From a virus: 23,209 nucleotides of DNA. Of this stretch, positions 1 through 23,103 are shown piece after piece. Positions within the stretch are counted from its first letter, which is position 1. Every line of letters starts with the position of its first letter. The stretch is from positions 1-23,209 of the IMG/VR virus record IMGVR_UViG_3300031841_000396; one strand, given 5' to 3'. Position numbers and translations under genes: made by a program. The notes under the pieces were generated by a model. The model saw only the letters and a list, made by a program, of their open reading frames with translations. It did no database searches and was not told the DNA's origin.

Positions 1-1175
1 CAGAGGGTTTTGATGCAGGTAATCCCCCAGCTTGGGCTGCTGCAGGTATACGTCAAGCAAATGCTGCATTAGCTAAACGTGGTTTAAGTGGTAGTAGCCT
101 AGCAGGTCAGGCTGTAATTCAAGCTATGATGGAACAGGCATTGCCCATTGCACAAGCAGATGCTGAAACATTCTCTAGATTTGAAGAACGAAACTTGTCA
201 AACCGTCAACAACGTGCTATGCTTGCAGCAGAACAAAGGGCAGCATTTATAGGACAAGAGTTTGACCAAGCATTCCAAGCTCGTGTACTAAATGCAGCAA
301 AGGTTAGTGATATAGCTAACATGAATTTTACAGCAGAACAAAACATTGCTTTAGAAAACTCACGTGCAGCTAACACTATGAACATGGCTAACCTAAGTAA
401 TAAACAGGCTCTTGTAATGGCACAAGCTGCTGCCTTGGGCAATTTAGATATGGCTAATCTTAGCAATTTGCAGCAAGCTGCTGTACAAAATGCGCAGAAC
501 TTCTTACAGATGGATATGGCTAACTTATCCAACCAACAACAAGCAGAGATGTTTAGTGCAACATCACGTGTACAGGCTCTCTTCAATGATGCTGCAGCTA
601 AAAATGCTATGTCACAATTTAATGCAAGGGAACAAAATCAGTCAGATCAATTTTTTGCTAACTTAGCAACAACGGTATCACAGTTTAATGCAGCACAATC
701 TAATGCTATGTCACAGTTTAATGCACAAGAAAAAAATGTGATAGAACGTTTTAATAAAGAAGTTGAGAACCAACGTGAACAATTCAATGCAAAGAATAGA
801 CTTGTGATTGATCAAAGTAATGCAGTCTGGCGTAGAGAAATTGCTACATCCGATACTGCAGCTATTAACCGTGCTAACGAACTAAATGCTGCAGCCGTGC
901 TTGGTATATCCAATACTGCATATAACAACTTATGGCAGTATTATGCTGATAGTATGGAGTTTGCATATCTATCAACAGAGAATGAACGTAATAGGGTAAA
1001 CGAGTTAGCTAAAGTAAAACTAAATGCTGATGCAAATGCAAATATTGCAAGTTTAAAAAATGATTATGCTTCATCTGCAGCATTTGGTCAAATGGTTACA
1101 ACACTATTATTTAGTGACTACAGCATGGATAACACTATTATCGGAGACATATTCGAAGGACTAGGATTTTTGTAA
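1..1175 (+). CDS. Virion-associated coiled-coil protein with 11/22-residue repeats (5' end outside window)
   Basis: The reading frame is open from position 3, so the gene starts left of the window; the ATG at 126 is internal. The visible part is rich in Ala, Asn and Gln, with no cysteine and almost no proline. From 186 to about 581 it is built of six 22-residue units that keep exact 66-nt phase (186, 252, 318, 384, 450, 516). The last three begin MANLSN. From 615 this becomes an 11-residue repeat starting QFNA or a variant, in 33-nt steps at 615, 648, 681, 714, 747, 780 and 813. Eleven-residue repeats usually form long right-handed coiled coils. The position ahead of a 1160-residue probable internal protein suggests a virion structural or internal core protein. 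No enzymatic motif was seen. The role is inferred from context. Confidence 0.8.
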   Translation, partial: EGFDAGNPPAWAAAGIRQANAALAKRGLSGSSLAGQAVIQAMMEQALPIAQADAETFSRFEERNLSNRQQRAMLAAEQRAAFIGQEFDQAFQARVLNAAKVSDIANMNFTAEQNIALENSRAANTMNMANLSNKQALVMAQAAALGNLDMANLSNLQQAAVQNAQNFLQMDMANLSNQQQAEMFSATSRVQALFNDAAAKNAMSQFNAREQNQSDQFFANLATTVSQFNAAQSNAMSQFNAQEKNVIERFNKEVENQREQFNAKNRLVIDQSNAVWRREIATSDTAAINRANELNAAAVLGISNTAYNNLWQYYADSMEFAYLSTENERNRVNELAKVKLNADANANIASLKNDYASSAAFGQMVTTLLFSDYSMDNTIIGDIFEGLGFL

Positions 1176-1894: not shown

Positions 1895-3015
1895 TGGGAT
1901 TCAGTTTAAGTGGTTTTGTTGGTGGATTTTCTCAAGGTGTAACACAAGAAATACAAGAGCAAGAAGAACGTACACAACGGCTAGAAGAAATAGCTAGAGA
2001 AGAAGCATCACGTCTTCGTATTGCTCGTGCAGGTGAAAGACGTAAAGAAAAAGCAGTTGCAGATGCACTGGCAGGACAATTAAGCCTGTACTTTAATCCA
2101 AATGAAGTAGAAGCTATTATGTCTAAAGGTGTTGGTGCAGGTAAAGGTATACTCGATTTAGCACCTACTGCATTAGAAAACGGTGTTGACCTAAGAACCC
2201 TTGTAAACCTTCCTAGCATAGAAGGTGAAGGTGAGCTAACAGAGAAAGACAAAGACACAATTAATAAAACTATTGAAATGGGAGAACCAAAAGATATTGG
2301 TGGGCTATCTACTAGTGCAGACACTACTGTTCCAACTACTAGTGGTTTGTTAAATCTTACTGCTATTGCAGATATGTATGATAAACCAGATAAAATTGAA
2401 ACTACTTTTGCTAATAGACTTGCTGTTATTTCACAGGAACTAGCCAGAGACCCAGAAGGAAAAGATATTGATATAGCTGCACTTAAAGCTGAACAAACTC
2501 AATTGCTAGAAGACTTGGGTAAAATGAAAGAAGCAGAACGTGGTAAAAGTGGGGATGGAAAAACAACCGAATCTTTTACACCGACTGCAGTTTCAACATA
2601 TGTTAGAGAAGTACGTGCTGGTGCCTTAACTAGTAGTGGTTTTAAACTTGACACAGAAGGAAGAATACAAAATCTAAGAGAGGGAAATCAACACATGGCT
2701 GCTATTGCAGACATACGAGTTGCTACAGAATTAAGTGAACGAAACTCTGTTATTCAATCTCCTTTACTTGAAAAGGCTGCTAGTGCTATTCATTCTAGTG
2801 CTCGTTCAGATTTACAGGATCATGCTTTTTCAACACAAAATCCTATAATGGTAAGTAGTCCAGAAGAATATGTAAAGAATTTTTATACATACAGAAAAGG
2901 TTCTGTAGTTAGTGATGGTAAATTTTTGTACGTAAAAACAGGTTACAGTGATCCTTATAATGTAGATAGTGAAGGCAATTCAATGCCGTTTTTCAAATTT
3001 AAAATAGGTGGATAA
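1894..3015 (+). CDS. Probable internal virion protein, 373 aa
   Basis: The protein opens with a glycine-rich hydrophobic stretch (MGFSLSGFVGGFSQGV). A long charged helical region at residues about 19-55 follows (EIQEQEERTQRLEEIAREEA, then RRKEKA), as in phage structural proteins that form coiled coils. The remainder is mixed alpha/beta with no catalytic motif I can identify. The start is coupled to the preceding stop by TAATG and has GGAGG upstream. The stop is coupled in the same way to the 1160-residue gene. Size, composition and position suggest an internal core or ejection-type protein of a short-tailed phage. The family is not recognised. Confidence 0.75.
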   Translation: MGFSLSGFVGGFSQGVTQEIQEQEERTQRLEEIAREEASRLRIARAGERRKEKAVADALAGQLSLYFNPNEVEAIMSKGVGAGKGILDLAPTALENGVDLRTLVNLPSIEGEGELTEKDKDTINKTIEMGEPKDIGGLSTSADTTVPTTSGLLNLTAIADMYDKPDKIETTFANRLAVISQELARDPEGKDIDIAALKAEQTQLLEDLGKMKEAERGKSGDGKTTESFTPTAVSTYVREVRAGALTSSGFKLDTEGRIQNLREGNQHMAAIADIRVATELSERNSVIQSPLLEKAASAIHSSARSDLQDHAFSTQNPIMVSSPEEYVKNFYTYRKGSVVSDGKFLYVKTGYSDPYNVDSEGNSMPFFKFKIGG

Positions 3016-6000
3016 TGGCAGAAATAAGCCAACAACAACTATTAAATTTTATTTATGAAGATACGGGTTCAGTACCACCCCCTACTGAGCCTGATAAATT
3101 TTTAGACGAAGAAGACGAATATAATAATTCCGACATGGAAAATAAAATGTTAAATTTTATAACGGGTGGTAACAATAATGTAAGTGAGAAAAAAGATACA
3201 TCTATTATAAAGACAATAGCTGAAGCAGAACAGATACCTAATACAATTGAATATCACATGAAGATGGGAATCCCTTTGATGGATGAGGTGGACTACCTAT
3301 CATCAGAAGAACATAAAAGAAATCTAGGTATCATAGAAGAACAGCAAGACATGTCTGCTACGGATAAAACACGTGAAGAATTTGACAGTCTTATAGGGCA
3401 TCTAGAAAAGTTAAGTCCAGAAGAAAAAGCAAAAGAAGCTGAAAAATTAAAAAGATCTATGCTAGGTTTGGATGAAGAAGGTGAGTACGTATTACAAACA
3501 GGTGTCTTACGTAGGGCTGGTGTTATAGAGCAGATTATGGCTGAGTCTGATCCCGTTAAACTAATGCAGTTTGCCAAGGGTGTATCATTAGTTGGTGCAT
3601 ATACTGATGACTCTATAACTGAAGGTCTGAGTATCCTAAGAGAGTATACACCCGTTTTATATGATGGCATCAATAAAGCCATGACAGGTTTTGGTAGATA
3701 CAGTGAGGCAGACACACCCAGAGAGTTGAGTGGTACTATACTAGAATCATTTGGAAGTGTAGCTGAGTTTGCAGAAACTGTACCTGTTCTTGGTGGTCTG
3801 TTTGCCAAACGTACTGCAGTAAGTAATCTCAGAAGGGCAGGTAAAAAAGCACTTCGTGAAGCTAAAAGATTAGAAACTGCTAGACGATATAATCCTGATG
3901 GTGCTACAATTGCCACTATGGAAGCTGCAGAAGAAACTCGTACAGCTGCTAAACAGGTTGCTGATAATGAAGTAGAGCTATCTAATCAAATGATTGTAGA
4001 GTTTGAAACTAAGATAGGTGGTAGAGATGTAAACGGTACAATCATTGATGATAGTAAGATTATATCTACAGAAACAAATGGTGTACTGAAAGTTGATCCT
4101 GATAAATCTCGTGAGGTAGGAAGGCAGACTGCATTTGAAATTACAGAACGTGATGGTGCATTGTTTGACTTGGCATTAGGTGAAGATATAGTTACTTCAC
4201 CAATTTTAAACCCTGATAAATTCAATGGGTTTGTAGCTGCAGCAAAAGAATTAAAAGAATTAAAACCAGATGCATTTAATAATAAAAAGACTGTCATTGA
4301 TAATCTTTTAGATCTTAGTATTAGTAAAGACTTTGAAGCTGACATAGGTGGACAAAACCTAATAGACATATTAAATAAATATGGTTTGTCTTTTGAGGAC
4401 TACGTGCTTACCGTTGTAGGATCAGGGTCAGATGCTGGTAAAGTATTGAATGCACTGTCTCAGATAAAACGTAAGAAACCTCAGAACATAATAGATGCGG
4501 ATAAGGCTGCAGCAAAAGTACGTGAAGCTGGAGATTTACGTAGAGGGGTAATGCGTGTAGAAAACGTCAGACGTGGTGGTTTAGTATCACAGATAGCTAC
4601 TGCTGCACGTAACCTTACCTCTGCTGCAATACGTGCTCCTATGGAAAGCCTTGGCAATGTAATGGACACTGCTATATATACGGCACAGAATAAAGGTATA
4701 GTAGCTGGTATAGGATCACTGTTATCTCGTGATAACTGGAGTGGTAGCTTTAGCAATATGAAGTATATGTTCTCTCGTCCTGATGTGGCAAAGGGATACT
4801 CCGATCTTATACTTGAACGTCCTGAGTTAGCCAAGCAGTTTGATGCTATGTACAATAACATCAATGAAATACAAAAGCTGACAGGACGTGGTTCAGGTGG
4901 TAGGCTTGATAGAGTACTATCTGAAATGGAAGACGTAGTTGACGTATTAAACACTCCCAACCGTTGGCAAGAATTTTTAATTAGACGTGGGCAGTTTTTT
5001 GGTGAACTTGAACGGTTGACAAAACGACACTACGATATAGATTTAATAGATGCTCTTAATGAGGGCAAATTAAAAGATTTAATGAATGATGCATCTTCAG
5101 TAAAACCTGAGAAAGCACCTAGTTTTATAACACTTGTAGATGAGGCTACAACAAAAGCCTTAGATGTGACTTATGCAAAGCAACCAGAAATCCCAATATT
5201 TAGAGAAATGTCTGCCTTTATTACTCGTAACGGACTTACTGTTTTAGTTGAATTTCCGAGATTTATGTTTAATAGTATGGAGCTTATGGGTCAGTATGCT
5301 GCAGGATCATCTATACCTCTCACACGTAAAGTAAAAGACCTTGTTACACTGTCTAACAGTGGTCCATTAACGTCAAAGGACAGGCAACGTATTAGTCGTA
5401 ACCTTATGGGCATGGCTGCTGTTGGTGCAGGATATTGGTATCGTACCTCAGAGGAAGCCCCACCTGAGTATAATCAGGTAGCAGTTGGTAGTGAAGCCCA
5501 GATGAACACAACACCAACATATCCTATGGCACATTTTTTATACTTAGGAGAGGCCACAAAAAGATTAAAAGAGGGTACGTTTGATGATTGGTTTGATGGT
5601 CAAGAATTTGTAGAACTGTTTACGGGAAGTAATTTTAGAACTGGTGTTGGTAACTCTATACTTGAAGAAGTAGCACAGATAGCAGATGCTACTGATCTAA
5701 CTGCAGAAGAGACAGTTGGACGTGCTGCAGGTAGGGCATTAGGTAACTACCTAACAACTTGGGTAGTACCTTTTGCACAAATAATTGATTCTCAAAGGGC
5801 ATTGGATATTCGTGGAACAGAGTATAAAGATGTAGCTAAAGACCCAACATTAGACGGTGTTGCAGCATTTGGAAACGAGATTAAACGATCTTTTCAGCAA
5901 CGTGGTTTCGGTCTATCTGCTGAAGAAGAAGCTGCATTACCCATAAAAGAATATCCATTCTATCCTGATGGTAAAGAACGTTTATCACCTGCATTTAAAC

Positions 6001-6497
6001 TAGCAGGTGTTTCTCTAACATCTAGACCTTCAAATGAAGGTGAGTATTTAATGAGTCTTGGTTTTGACTACAGGCAGTTTGGCAGTAAATCTAAAGTGCC
6101 TACCATACAAAGGTACGAGCAACGTTTGATAAATGGACATATGGGTACTCTTGTAGAGATTGCACAATCATATGAAACTATTCTCAGGCAGGAGTATCAG
6201 GAAGCTAACGAAACATTAAGAGAAGAGTTTACTGAAGAAGAATACGTAGCAAATAAACTACGTCCTCTTATATCTGAGGAACTTACTTCTTTTAAACGTG
6301 AGGTACGTGATATAGTAGAGACAGAAGGAAGTCCATATGCAAGGGCTATGATTACATATCGTAGGATACAACCACAATTCCGTAAACTTGCAACTACAGA
6401 TTTTGTGGAAAGGTATGGAAGGAATCCTGACCCTAGTAGCACAGAAGACTTACAGGTTCTAACAGAGATAGCACAGATATACAAAGAAGCATACTAA
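3015..6497 (+). CDS. Large probable internal virion (ejection) protein, 1160 aa
   Basis: The largest gene of the window and the last of the + strand block. The N-terminal 50 residues are acidic. The rest is mainly alpha-helical, with charged segments such as the one near residues 270-320 (RRAGKKALREAKRLETARRY). A short hydrophobic stretch near residue 800 (NLMGMAAVGAGYWY) could insert in a membrane. I see no lysozyme or transglycosylase catalytic motif. Its length, end position in the structural block and lack of cysteine fit the large internal/ejection proteins of T7-like and HMO-2011-like podoviruses. This is a contextual inference, not a sequence match. It begins with a TAATG overlap. The stop is followed 3 nt later by a strong terminator. 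Confidence 0.8.
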   Translation: MAEISQQQLLNFIYEDTGSVPPPTEPDKFLDEEDEYNNSDMENKMLNFITGGNNNVSEKKDTSIIKTIAEAEQIPNTIEYHMKMGIPLMDEVDYLSSEEHKRNLGIIEEQQDMSATDKTREEFDSLIGHLEKLSPEEKAKEAEKLKRSMLGLDEEGEYVLQTGVLRRAGVIEQIMAESDPVKLMQFAKGVSLVGAYTDDSITEGLSILREYTPVLYDGINKAMTGFGRYSEADTPRELSGTILESFGSVAEFAETVPVLGGLFAKRTAVSNLRRAGKKALREAKRLETARRYNPDGATIATMEAAEETRTAAKQVADNEVELSNQMIVEFETKIGGRDVNGTIIDDSKIISTETNGVLKVDPDKSREVGRQTAFEITERDGALFDLALGEDIVTSPILNPDKFNGFVAAAKELKELKPDAFNNKKTVIDNLLDLSISKDFEADIGGQNLIDILNKYGLSFEDYVLTVVGSGSDAGKVLNALSQIKRKKPQNIIDADKAAAKVREAGDLRRGVMRVENVRRGGLVSQIATAARNLTSAAIRAPMESLGNVMDTAIYTAQNKGIVAGIGSLLSRDNWSGSFSNMKYMFSRPDVAKGYSDLILERPELAKQFDAMYNNINEIQKLTGRGSGGRLDRVLSEMEDVVDVLNTPNRWQEFLIRRGQFFGELERLTKRHYDIDLIDALNEGKLKDLMNDASSVKPEKAPSFITLVDEATTKALDVTYAKQPEIPIFREMSAFITRNGLTVLVEFPRFMFNSMELMGQYAAGSSIPLTRKVKDLVTLSNSGPLTSKDRQRISRNLMGMAAVGAGYWYRTSEEAPPEYNQVAVGSEAQMNTTPTYPMAHFLYLGEATKRLKEGTFDDWFDGQEFVELFTGSNFRTGVGNSILEEVAQIADATDLTAEETVGRAAGRALGNYLTTWVVPFAQIIDSQRALDIRGTEYKDVAKDPTLDGVAAFGNEIKRSFQQRGFGLSAEEEAALPIKEYPFYPDGKERLSPAFKLAGVSLTSRPSNEGEYLMSLGFDYRQFGSKSKVPTIQRYEQRLINGHMGTLVEIAQSYETILRQEYQEANETLREEFTEEEYVANKLRPLISEELTSFKREVRDIVETEGSPYARAMITYRRIQPQFRKLATTDFVERYGRNPDPSSTEDLQVLTEIAQIYKEAY

Positions 6498-6500
6498 ATA

Positions 6501-6527
6501 GGGGGCAATTAAGCCCCCTTCTTTTTT
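6501..6527 (+). terminator. Intrinsic terminator of the + strand virion operon
   Basis: A perfect 6-bp GC-only stem (GGGGGC at 6501-6506, GCCCCC at 6513-6518) with loop AATTAA is followed by TTCTTTTTT at 6519-6527. It begins 3 nt after the 1160-residue gene stops. On the opposite strand the hairpin is followed only by TATTTAG, so termination there should be weaker. The stop codon of the last - strand gene lies in the loop. It separates two converging transcription units. Confidence 0.9.
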
Positions 6528-6640
6528 AGCTGTTCTAGAAACCACTCTAGCATTTTTATTAATTCATCTCGTAACTTCTCTGGTTCTGTCTCTGCATTAC
6601 GTTGCTGCAGAAACTGCTTTGCTTCTTCTTCCAGACTCAT
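6509..6640 (-). CDS. Small acidic helical protein, 43 aa
   Basis: A 43-residue frame, not recognised. It begins MSLEEEAKQF, contains LRDELIKMLEWFLEQLKKK and looks like one long amphipathic helix. The start lies inside the 3' end of the RMF-like gene (44-nt overlap). The ribosome binding site is poor, so translation would depend on coupling. The TAA stop falls in the loop of the bidirectional hairpin, which makes this the last gene of the - strand block. Codon use is like that of its neighbours. It could be a non-coding remnant, but the helical pattern and fit to the terminator favour a real small gene. Confidence 0.5.
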   Translation of the reverse strand: MSLEEEAKQFLQQRNAETEPEKLRDELIKMLEWFLEQLKKKGA

Positions 6641-6842
6641 ATTGTAAGATCCGTTTTAACTGCTCATAGTAGGCTTTTGTAAAACCTCTCTCCCATTCTC
6701 GCCACTGCATTGTGGTGGTATTATATGGGTTCCAAACCTTCCCTCGTTTGAAAGCTGTATAACCTTGCTCGTATTGAAACTTTAATGGGGCATCATACTT
6801 GCCAAGGTTGCGTTCTTTACGGGATAGTTTCTTGGGATTCAT
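6597..6842 (-). CDS. RMF-like (ribosome modulation factor-like) protein, 81 aa
   Basis: Residues about 22-60 follow the pattern of bacterial ribosome modulation factor: GY-x-A-x(3)-G (GYTAFKRG), then PY (NPYN), then a W-x-x-G-aromatic block (WERGF) followed by KAYYEQ. E. coli RMF has GYQAGIAG, CPYQ and WLGGW in the same order with similar spacing. RMF binds the 30S subunit and drives formation of inactive 100S ribosome dimers in stationary phase. The N-terminus is basic (MNPKKLSRKERN), fitting RNA or ribosome binding. Bacterial RMF is about 55 residues; this protein has extra N- and C-terminal tails. The start overlaps the preceding stop by 4 nt (ATGA). The function in the phage (translation control or host takeover) is inferred. 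Confidence 0.65.
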   Translation of the reverse strand: MNPKKLSRKERNLGKYDAPLKFQYEQGYTAFKRGKVWNPYNTTTMQWREWERGFTKAYYEQLKRILQYESGRRSKAVSAAT

Positions 6843-7297
6843 GCTACTTCTCCTAGCTCTATTAGAGTTGCTTCAGTGTAAGGTATGTGATAGAAGTGCT
6901 CACCCTTTCGGATGTTTCTACCGTGTGCCTCACGGAGTCTGTCCTTAGTTAAGCTGGTATCTTTGATACGCCACACTTGCTTCAAGTCTCTACGAAAAAT
7001 GTAGAAGTTTAGCACACCATTGGCATCTTTGTACCTGTCAAGCAGTCTAGTTTTACGTTCTGGGATACGTATCTCTGCCCAATCTTTAGGCCAATCTCCT
7101 GTCCAAGCTACCTTCACCTCTGCTTCATTGAAGTATGTGAAGTCTTCTTTTGTAGAGACAATATCAACTGTATAGTTCTCTTTTGTATCTGTGATTTCAT
7201 GTCCGATACTTTTAAGATAATTCACAAGTGTCCTTTTTGCAGGTGAATCATACATGTTGTACCAATCTCTTCTAAATTCTTTTCTTACTGTCATCAT
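6839..7297 (-). CDS. Possible PD-(D/E)xK-fold nuclease-like protein, 152 aa
   Basis: The central part reads as an alpha-beta-beta arrangement: helix at residues 19-31, TVDIVS with D45, then FNEAEVKVAW with E60 and K62. D followed by E-x-K fits the PD-(D/E)xK nuclease core. The downstream WAEIRIPERKTRLLDRY and NFYIFRRDLKQVWRI also recall small endonucleases. Start MM follows GGAGATT, so either Met could be used. The stop overlaps the RMF-like start by 4 nt. The acidic/lysine pattern could be chance; another reading is a DNA-binding or host-takeover protein of unknown family. Confidence 0.7.
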   Translation of the reverse strand: MMTVRKEFRRDWYNMYDSPAKRTLVNYLKSIGHEITDTKENYTVDIVSTKEDFTYFNEAEVKVAWTGDWPKDWAEIRIPERKTRLLDRYKDANGVLNFYIFRRDLKQVWRIKDTSLTKDRLREAHGRNIRKGEHFYHIPYTEATLIELGEVA

Positions 7298-7435: not shown

Positions 7436-9331
7436 TTATGTTAAGTCTACGATTTCACATACATCACCAGAGCAAGCCATAGTTTGCATGGCAACCGTAT
7501 TGTCCTCTTGCTCATACTCTGATAGTGCATTCCAGTTAATTCGGTCAGGCATCTTAGCCAGTAAAGCATTATACTCATCCTCTGTACAGTCTTGATAGGG
7601 TGCTTGTTGATAAGTATGATCAGAGTGTGGCAAGAATGACACACCTGACATCTCGTCAAAGTGTTTGAATACAAATGCACCTACCTCTAACCATTCACTG
7701 TCACGTACAGAGATAGTTACACTAGGTTTATGCTCACACCAGTGTCGTTGATATGTAAGCCACATCTCTAGTTGTTCGATAGCAGTCATATCATTACGTG
7801 TAACTGCACCTGCTGGTGATTTCTGGGGGAAACTAAAGACTGTAGTTGTATCTCCCTTAAACACACACGGTTCGTTAGGTATCCCCTGATCCTTCATAAA
7901 CTGTGTCAAGGGGTCTTTGTTGTCTCCTCTAACGGTTCTGATGTAATAGGGGGAATGACGGGCATGTATTCCACTGGCTGAGTCAACAAGTTGTGAGACT
8001 GTTCCAGATGGCTTAACACAACTGATGCTAACAGAAGCATTAATACCAAGATGAGCCGACCATTCAGCATTAGTTTCAACAGCAACTTCACGTAAGTGGT
8101 CAAGGGTTTTCTCCAATCCTTTATTTTTTGTAGTCATTAACGGGTTGTCCATTATCCCCGTGAGAGACACACCAAGCAATCGTTCTTCTTCGGTATTACG
8201 TTGCCACACCTTTCGCAAGTACGGGAATTTAGTGTAGGTTGACTGAATTGTTCCAAGAATAGTTGCAAGGCGGACTTTTCGTTCAAGATCAATAGTAGTG
8301 TCCGTAGACCTGACGACAACTTCCGTAAGGTTGCAGAACTGATACGGACGAAGGATGATTTCACTGCACGGATTAGTGCCAAACTCGTAGTCAGGATCAC
8401 GTCTACCGTACTTAGCAGCCTGTTTCTTAGATGCTTCACGATTAAATACTCCTCTCTCTCCAGACTTAGACTCTACCAGTGCAGTCCATTCACGCATGAA
8501 TGTTTCTACGTCTGGTTTTTCTGTGTACGACACACTGTTGTTTGCCAAGGCACGATGTGCTGCAGTCTCCCACCACTGTCCTGACTTAGCATGACGCATA
8601 CGATCATCACTTAGATTGGATAGGCTGATCATTGCTGATCTACGTACACCACCTACGACTACGATCTGACCGATGAAGCACATCAGGTCATGGCATTCAA
8701 TGCTGGATAGTTTACGACCCTGTGCATTCTTGAATGTGGTTACAGTAAAGTTAAACAACTCAACAAGAGGTGCAGGTCCACTAGCTCTACCACCAAATGT
8801 TTTTAGTCTTGCACCTGCAGGACGTACAAGAGAGACATCCCACTTGGGAATCTCGCCAGCCCAGAGGAGTGCCAACAATTGTCTGAATGCTTTAGCCCAA
8901 CCTTCCTTACTATCCTTGACCACAATGGTAGTGTCAGAGTCAAAGAGAGTGGGAATCTCAGGGAGCTTGCTGATGAACTGCCTCTCGACACTGAAGCCAA
9001 CACCAGTACCACAGAGAAGGATGAACATAGCCTCATCGAAGGACTTAGGGTCATCTACGGGTAGGTAGCTACAGTTATACCCAGCAGTGTTGTCACGTTC
9101 TAATGCAGGACCAGCAGTCATCATTGCTCTCATGGATGGCATTACCTCTAGCCCAAGTATAGCTTGCTCTATCTCGTGCTTTAATTCTGGGGGTACAAGA
9201 TCAGAGATAACATTAGCTGAGTAACGTGTTACTGTATCGTCCCATGTTTCACGACCATATCCATCAAAGTATTTTGCATATCGTGATTTGTGTATAAAAG
9301 ATTGATAGTCTGTTGGTAGGTAATTGCTCAT
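7436..9331 (-). CDS. nrdJ: Class II (adenosylcobalamin-dependent) ribonucleotide reductase, monomeric type
   Basis: Reduces ribonucleotides to deoxyribonucleotides for phage DNA synthesis, using adenosylcobalamin instead of an iron or manganese partner subunit. The active site matches monomeric class II enzymes such as Lactobacillus leichmannii RTPR. C87 lies in NTAGYNCSYLPVDD. The NPCSE block supplies C322 (thiyl radical position) and E324, and C333 follows 11 residues after C322, the same spacing as the C408/C419 pair of RTPR. The C-terminal CSGDVC (C620, C625) is the redox relay pair. CVKPSGTVSQL at 438-448 is the conserved phosphate-binding loop. At 631 residues it is somewhat shorter than RTPR. 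No NrdB-type subunit is nearby. The start overlaps the MazG-like stop as ATGA, with GGAG upstream. Confidence 0.95.
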   Translation of the reverse strand: MSNYLPTDYQSFIHKSRYAKYFDGYGRETWDDTVTRYSANVISDLVPPELKHEIEQAILGLEVMPSMRAMMTAGPALERDNTAGYNCSYLPVDDPKSFDEAMFILLCGTGVGFSVERQFISKLPEIPTLFDSDTTIVVKDSKEGWAKAFRQLLALLWAGEIPKWDVSLVRPAGARLKTFGGRASGPAPLVELFNFTVTTFKNAQGRKLSSIECHDLMCFIGQIVVVGGVRRSAMISLSNLSDDRMRHAKSGQWWETAAHRALANNSVSYTEKPDVETFMREWTALVESKSGERGVFNREASKKQAAKYGRRDPDYEFGTNPCSEIILRPYQFCNLTEVVVRSTDTTIDLERKVRLATILGTIQSTYTKFPYLRKVWQRNTEEERLLGVSLTGIMDNPLMTTKNKGLEKTLDHLREVAVETNAEWSAHLGINASVSISCVKPSGTVSQLVDSASGIHARHSPYYIRTVRGDNKDPLTQFMKDQGIPNEPCVFKGDTTTVFSFPQKSPAGAVTRNDMTAIEQLEMWLTYQRHWCEHKPSVTISVRDSEWLEVGAFVFKHFDEMSGVSFLPHSDHTYQQAPYQDCTEDEYNALLAKMPDRINWNALSEYEQEDNTVAMQTMACSGDVCEIVDLT

Positions 9332-9639
9332 CTTGTATCTCCTGACCCAGACAGTGTGCCTTTCTCCTGACGTTGACGTAGCTTATCAAGGTTGGCTTGT
9401 GCAACGTCTTCCATCTTTAGACCTAAGTCTTTACAGATAGCTGCAATGTACCACAGGCAATCTCCTATCTCTGAACCGATAGCCTCTTTGTCAAGTTTAC
9501 CATCACGTACAATCTTCTTTACTTTGTTTGCTACTTCACCAGCTTCACCTGCAAGTCCTAGTGTGGGATACAATACCTGTACAGATGCAGGATAGATTGC
9601 TGTTGTAGCAGCTTGTCTTTGATAATCATTCATATTCAT
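9328..9639 (-). CDS. MazG-like nucleoside triphosphate pyrophosphohydrolase, 103 aa
   Basis: A single MazG-type all-alpha domain. The metal-binding motif is visible as GLAGEAGEVANKVKK (EAGE-x-x-x-K) near residues 29-43, with the second acidic pair in EIGDCLWYIAAICKDLG near residues 58-74. Such enzymes hydrolyse NTPs or dNTPs to the monophosphate and pyrophosphate. In phages they are thought to adjust the nucleotide pool; a role in lowering (p)ppGpp has been proposed for cyanophage MazG and is debated. It lies next to ribonucleotide reductase with a 4-nt overlap, supporting a role in nucleotide metabolism. The start is MNMNDYQ. Related fold families (dUTPase-like, HisE) are less likely given the EAGE motif. 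Confidence 0.88.
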   Translation of the reverse strand: MNMNDYQRQAATTAIYPASVQVLYPTLGLAGEAGEVANKVKKIVRDGKLDKEAIGSEIGDCLWYIAAICKDLGLKMEDVAQANLDKLRQRQEKGTLSGSGDTR

Positions 9640-22413: not shown

Positions 22414-23103
22414 TTACACTCCTTGTGCTACGGTATTTGCTTTACGTTTGCTGCTACCATGTGCAGGGAAACCAACGATTGCATCACGGTTTCTAGCACA
22501 CAGTTGGCATGTGGCACATGTCACATCGTCACGTATCGTGGCTGGACATATGACCACCTTACGGCCTTTGGGTGTGGTGGTGTTGGTGGTTTGTGCCTCT
22601 GGCAACACTGTGGTCACAGGTGCAATGTCTAGGTCATACAATGCATCAGCATGTGCAAGATTGTTGCCAGACAGGTTGACCACAAAACCTTTCCCATTCA
22701 TCCGTTTGACCACCTGTGCATTATGCTTGTCAGTCAATACGGGATAGTGAGTATAGGTGAAACCCTTTTTACCCTCATTGGCATCTGCCAATTCGTCACA
22801 TGCATCAGCATCCAGACGTTTACCATCACCCGGACAATCACCTGCTTGGTTGTGTCTCCACAACTGACCATCCTTGAAGGATTTGACATTGGCAATGAAT
22901 GTAGGCCAATCATCACCACGTTCACCACGTGTCACTTTACCCCAATGTATTGCTAATGGGCCACCGTTTGCATAGCAACCACCTTCATTATCATTGTTGA
23001 AGGGGCAAACATCAGGGCATGTATCTGCTGACGTGGTTGTGACGGGTATTTTGCCAACCTTTATGTTGTTAGATTTGAAGGTGGTGTGTACTTGGTAAGT
23101 CAT
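22414..23103 (-). CDS. Cysteine-rich phage protein, probably metal-binding, 229 aa
   Basis: The first gene of the - strand block in this window. Nine cysteines fall in clusters: C29, C33 and C43 (TCPDVCPF then GGCYANGGP); C90 and C102; and C186, C196, C199 and C202 (VVICPATI, TCATCQLCARNRD). The C-x3-C-x9-C plus C-x9-C-x2-C-x2-C layout suggests zinc or an iron-sulfur cluster. Other fixed-looking parts are FVVNLSGNNLAHAD and a C-terminal VGFPAHGSSKRK. It resembles an uncharacterised phage family (DUF7227-like in my memory); no reaction is known. GGAG lies 8 nt upstream of the ATG. One copy of the 21-nt palindromic repeat and the candidate promoter lie directly ahead of it. Confidence 0.8.
   Translation of the reverse strand: MTYQVHTTFKSNNIKVGKIPVTTTSADTCPDVCPFNNDNEGGCYANGGPLAIHWGKVTRGERGDDWPTFIANVKSFKDGQLWRHNQAGDCPGDGKRLDADACDELADANEGKKGFTYTHYPVLTDKHNAQVVKRMNGKGFVVNLSGNNLAHADALYDLDIAPVTTVLPEAQTTNTTTPKGRKVVICPATIRDDVTCATCQLCARNRDAIVGFPAHGSSKRKANTVAQGV

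Follow-up and report, generated by a model that had tools for sequence, protein, structure and literature searches.

The ribosome modulation factor (RMF; PF04957, NF011162; E. coli b0953; PDB 6h4n, 9iot, and 2jrm) is a small basic protein folded into a two-helix hairpin, encoded on the chromosome and described as a factor of gammaproteobacteria (PMC8126665, PMC8778775). Yoshida et al. mutated every invariant residue of RMF and found that ribosome binding was lost in the variants G16A, C29A, W40A, and W44A, and that R3, K5, R11, G23, P30, G43, and R45 were required for dimers (PMC8126665). R3 and K5 touch helix 28, and R45 touches C1536 of the anti-Shine-Dalgarno sequence (PMC8126665). Phage proteins with the RMF fold are already known from annotation, including gp60 and gp76 of Agrobacterium phage Milano, a protein of Delftia phage IME-DE1, and the "ribosome modulation factor" of Caulobacter phage CcrBL9. 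We found no report of ribosome binding for any phage RMF-fold protein. Phage homologues of other ribosome-associated proteins behave differently from one another: the viral HPF of phage rv5 does not enter E. coli ribosomes and leaves the levels of 100S particles unchanged, whereas viral bS21, which aquatic phages often encode, is built into ribosomes (PMC6375957). In our reading, these results caution against assigning function on the basis of homology and set a precedent for the tuning of ribosomes rather than their shutdown.

The family described here is new among the phage RMF-fold proteins, widespread, and unnamed. It belongs to phages of the HMO-2011 type, which have been described as dominant marine phages with a broad distribution (PMC9038755). 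The analysed stretch of DNA (the window) is a 23.2-kb IMG/VR record of 23,209 nucleotides, whose nearest known phages are the Roseobacter phages CRP-345 and CRP-1 of this type. The gene of interest occupies positions 6597–6842 of the minus strand and, as an open reading frame check confirmed, encodes 81 residues between an ATG start and a TAA stop codon. An AGGAG Shine-Dalgarno motif lies 7 nt upstream of the gene. Comparison with relatives gave dN values of 0.04–0.20 and dS values of 0.6–1.1. Therefore, the protein is under purifying selection, as judged from its codons, and the gene is real. A scan of IMG/VR identified at least 572 confirmed relatives. In HMO-2011, CRP-1, and CRP-345, the corresponding genomic slot contains direct orthologues (gp20, gp29, and gp38, respectively), which are annotated as hypothetical proteins only; the publications on these phages say nothing about ribosomes. 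Further orthologues are present in ctYwJ313, CRP-212, CRP-235, and CRP-3, where the annotation does not list the reading frame as a separate gene. Most conserved genes of the HMO-2011-type phages are without function; for this one, a fold can be named and an effect on host translation proposed as a testable hypothesis.

The initial annotation described the product as a phage-encoded RMF-like protein based on its motif and basic N-terminus. Both are present: the protein contains G27-Y28-x-A30-x3-G34, P39-Y40, and W50-x2-G53-F54. The Pfam RMF profile is its top match, with a score of 17.3 bits and an E-value of 0.005, which is below the curated gathering cut-off of 27.9 bits; the E. coli RMF control scored 79.6 bits. 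The same profile matched eleven of sixteen relatives, the best with an E-value of 6e-4, and was the sole Pfam match of four divergent members scanned separately. The Rmf/CrpP family (NF041886) and the Rmf-like phage protein (NF041887) of NCBIfam form one superfamily with the family of the window protein. These two models did not match the window protein itself and matched several family members below threshold, the best scores being 18.7 and 15.6 bits against cut-offs of 28 and 40 bits, respectively. Thus, none of the members tested reached a curated RMF cut-off of Pfam or NCBIfam. Milano gp60, by comparison, clears the Pfam cut-off with 35.6 bits; the HMO-2011-type family is more divergent and is hypothetical or unannotated.

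The relationship to RMF is also indicated by other comparisons. An HHalign comparison of five gammaproteobacterial RMFs with 108 family members gave a score above those of all 200 column-shuffled RMF profiles, with 39 aligned columns and 28% identity. A transitive link leads from the window protein to Pseudomonas phage Ep020 (tblastn E-value 2e-4) and from Ep020 to RMF (E-value 1.3e-5). A family HMM, searched against 929 reading frames of phage Milano together with known proteins, placed Ep020, Vequintavirus W70, Milano gp60 and gp76, and the RMFs of E. coli and Klebsiella at the top ranks; the RMFs of Proteus, Vibrio, and Aeromonas scored more weakly, reaching down into the noise. A six-frame scan of whole genomes with the RMF profile matched only the RMF-like locus in the window record and in eight genomes of the group, and missed the gene in six further group genomes, including HMO-2011. 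Additional sub-threshold matches to the RMF profile were observed in Milano (43598–43699) and Ep020 (71094–71222), which suggests that a phage genome may carry several RMF-fold paralogues. Classical RMF was not found in IMG/VR, and the search of GenBank phages for it returned nothing significant.

No single one of these tests is decisive, and the individual E-values are marginal. A G..G..W..G pattern present by coincidence in an unrelated helical protein might produce comparable scores, and P63C (PF10546) and the FRB domain of mTOR gave similarly weak matches, the latter scoring level with RMF when PDB sequences were searched. However, several independent profile and structure tests agree, and ten shuffled versions of the window protein gave no RMF match. 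We consider a chance resemblance highly improbable. The P63C and mTOR matches are short and cover the E-W-x-R stretch, and we regard them as coincidental.

The fold was predicted with AlphaFold2. A full-length model computed with 31 close relatives was weak (pLDDT 70.5) and gave no RMF match in a structure search. A model of the core (residues 13–70), computed with 50 diverse relatives, was confident (pLDDT 90.4, pTM 0.73) and contains helix 1 (residues 20–33), a loop (34–44), and helix 2 (45–69), encoded by positions 6636–6783 of the minus strand. The two helices and the loop can be superposed on RMF, and the loop after G23 is two residues shorter than that of RMF. When the core model was compared with 350,542 PDB chains by Foldseek, RMF structures occupied ranks 1, 2, and 4. 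The matches 9iot_y, 2jrm, and 6h4n_v had probabilities of 0.94, 0.66, and 0.57 and TM-scores of about 0.65–0.69, with E-values of about 1, a level to be expected from a chain of 58 residues. The match with the highest probability, 9iot_y, superposed with TM-scores of 0.65 and 0.69 and an rmsd of 1.5 Å. VIA-align placed RMF at ranks 1–3 with Z-scores of 6.9, 6.8, and 6.1, ahead of the next unrelated chain at 4.8, although a Z-score of 6.9 falls within the range that the tool labels a common arrangement. A library of viral structures contained many small phage proteins with the RMF fold, three of which are named ribosome modulation factor. Sequence and fold thus relate the protein to RMF beyond chance, as members of the RMF/CrpP superfamily, and it is very probable that the protein is homologous to RMF and has its fold. 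The proposed RMF relationship therefore holds for family and fold, including in the profile-profile comparison, and stops short of the curated PF04957 score.

The residues that RMF needs for its function are a different matter. Residues were counted in 45 family representatives less than 90% identical to one another. Those that maintain the fold are retained: G16, W40, and G43 in all 45, G23 in 43, and an aromatic residue at the position of W44 in 44. P30 is kept in 31 of the 45, and C29 is a cysteine in four, being mostly replaced by asparagine or serine. The "PY" pair put forward as an RMF feature is present in the window protein but is not general to the family (proline in 31/45, tyrosine in 8/45). 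R3, K5, R11, and R45, the basic residues whose function has been tested in RMF and which include the contacts to rRNA, were found at the aligned positions in none of the 45 representatives, and the position of R45 is occupied by asparagine, aspartate, or threonine. The N-terminal register relative to RMF is uncertain, as the N-terminus is not helical in the model. The mean net charge of the family is +8, and it is possible that a displaced basic patch serves a similar purpose.

These counts bear on whether the protein could be a true mimic of RMF that binds the platform of the 30S subunit at the anti-Shine-Dalgarno sequence and forces the ribosomes of the host to form inactive 100S dimers. The shared fold, the basic N-terminus, and the retention of G16, W40, and the aromatic residue at W44, which are critical for binding in E. 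coli RMF (PMC8126665), are consistent with such a mimic, but the loss of R3, K5, R11, and R45 is not. RMF is moreover regarded as gammaproteobacterial (PMC8126665, PMC8778775), and Caulobacter, used as an alphaproteobacterial control, contains HPF but gave no RMF match. No HPF gene was found in eight genomes of phages with RMF-fold proteins, and the gene beside the Vequintavirus homologue is not HPF. Shine-Dalgarno motifs precede 25 of the 30 genes of the window, compared with a background of 16%, so blocking of the anti-Shine-Dalgarno sequence would harm the phage itself. A mimic of this kind is very unlikely. The hibernation of host ribosomes suggested in the initial annotation is not supported, because the tested members do not reach the curated cut-offs and the four basic residues are absent from all 45 representatives; we give 100S hibernation by this protein little credence. 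An RMF match alone is no sign of ribosome hibernation, since the fold is widespread in phages and the residues that RMF needs are not.

The family has conserved features of its own. F31, T44, E49, and R52 are invariant in the 45 representatives, and K15, D17, A18, P19, Q23, Q46, and R48 are present in 40–41 of them. Unlike RMF, the family carries the motifs K-Y-D-A-P-L, near the N-terminus, and T-M-Q-x-R-E-W-x-R-G. The first is part of the family-specific R-K-x-R-x-L-G-K-Y-D-A-P-L motif of the basic N-terminal extension (6784–6842, minus strand), delimited by alignment and column counts. From its sequence, the family reads as an RMF scaffold carrying another binding surface. The extra N-terminal tail noted at the outset is thus a feature of the family, which does not apply to its C-terminal counterpart (residues 67–81; 6597–6640, minus strand). 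The C-terminal tail is missing from several relatives, for example CRP-345 gp38, and mostly overlaps the next ORF. This ORF of 43 residues (MSLEEEAKQFLQQRN...; 6509–6640, minus strand) shares 44 nt with the RMF-like gene, is conserved within the clade, and has no annotation. Since the last 15 residues lie within the overlap and are nearly free of synonymous change, the tail is probably a side effect of the overlapping frames.

Upstream, the RMF-like gene is joined to a gene for a 152-residue protein (6839–7297, minus strand), with which its start shares 4 nt (ATGA). The 152-residue protein has invariant D45, E60, and K62 in a D-x14-E-x-K arrangement, which by eye resembles PD-(D/E)XK enzymes and makes it a putative nuclease; profile searches give no support for this identity. 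In CRP-212 the order of the two genes is swapped, and they are still neighbours. This lasting adjacency and overlap, together with surface residues foreign to RMF that are invariant (T44, E49, R52) or nearly so (D17, Q23, Q46, R48) and the many phage RMF-fold proteins with differing decorations, would suit a general adaptor with a role unrelated to ribosomes, whose hairpin binds a protein partner such as the putative nuclease or a different enzyme of the phage or host. However, in other clades the neighbour of the RMF-like gene is an unrelated protein, which means that the family is not tied to a single kind of partner, and the nuclease assignment was made by eye. We regard the adaptor function as somewhat unlikely. 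The unrelated-sequence proteins at the place of the 152-residue gene in other clades (L012 type and L028) also contain a D...D-V-K pattern.

The slot of the RMF-like gene is bounded by the upstream ribonucleotide reductase gene (7436–9331, minus strand), whose homologue is annotated in CRP-1, CRP-345, and HMO-2011, and by a convergent structural gene (3015–6497, plus strand). The gene indeed ends the metabolic block, as initially annotated, and is followed only by the overlapping 43-residue ORF and the convergent structural gene. MazG is downstream of the RMF-like gene at 132 of 161 loci, and the 43-residue ORF is found there in the clade of the window. At its start, this ORF is similar to the N-terminal extension found in MazG of HMO-2011, and the window has its own MazG gene (9328–9639) upstream of the ribonucleotide reductase. 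Among 24 records selected by DNA polymerase (polA) alone, 20 contain the RMF-like gene. The remaining four are fragments: G031 and G033 lack ribonucleotide reductase, G035 breaks inside it, and G014 ends 586 bases past it. Within this selection the gene is near-fixed in one slot, and almost all genomes that extend far enough to reveal it contain it. A host origin of the gene has no support, as the matches in genome_contigs number four and are located on two contigs of 55–63 kb. Both contigs recur in two unrelated MAGs, so the matches are probably phage contamination.

Seven of ten isolate genomes contain the gene. The other three, CRP-603, CRP-207, and CRP-13, have glutaredoxin and PhoH in the slot, and CRP-207 also endonuclease VII. 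PhoH was found in none of the 19 genomes bearing the RMF-like gene, and the two co-occurred in none of 22 genomes. Because 12 of the 19 genomes were picked for bearing the gene, or for having near relatives that do, and descent is uncontrolled, this mutual exclusivity is a lead only, based on three isolates and perhaps due to descent. It bears on whether the protein might tune translation by binding the 30S subunit near the 3' end of 16S rRNA, favouring phage messages or shielding ribosomes without forming dimers, as phage bS21 may. The RMF fold, the ribosome-incorporated bS21 of aquatic phages (PMC6375957), and the presence of PhoH in the slot of genomes without the gene are in line with such tuning, but the contact residues differ from those of RMF and the PhoH pattern may reflect descent. 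Taken in this specific form, tuning is rather unlikely.

Based on the profiles, the core model, and the genomic position, a mode of action can be proposed. The protein is a small, basic, phage-specific member of the RMF/CrpP superfamily, with a predicted two-helix hairpin stabilised by the glycines and aromatic residues of RMF, as the profiles and the core model show. Its position in the early or metabolic operon suggests early or middle expression, and the ATGA overlap may couple its translation to that of the preceding gene. The target is most likely a structured RNA or a ribonucleoprotein, with the host 30S subunit as the leading candidate, and binding would change or protect translation during infection. 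The route taken by E. coli RMF, in which the basic N-terminus lies on helix 28 and R45 on the anti-Shine-Dalgarno sequence before 100S dimers form with short HPF, is improbable because R3, K5, R11, and R45 are replaced. As a whole, this explanation, a phage RMF/CrpP member that likely binds RNA or ribonucleoprotein by another route, is our preferred one and is held tentatively, at slightly less than even chance. Ribosome binding itself is possible and somewhat doubtful. We further speculate, while considering it decidedly unlikely, that a rebuilt RMF-fold protein of dominant marine phages binds the ribosomes of alphaproteobacteria, hosts thought to be free of RMF, at the 3' end of 16S rRNA in a new way, steering or protecting translation, and that PhoH can substitute for it in the slot.

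Two further features were observed near the ends of the window. The open frame at 126–1175 (plus strand) contains degenerate NLSNxQQA and SQFNAxxxN repeats, and its product is probably a virion protein. At the opposite edge, the gene at 22414–23103 (minus strand) has a strong match to DUF7227, with an E-value of 1e-86.
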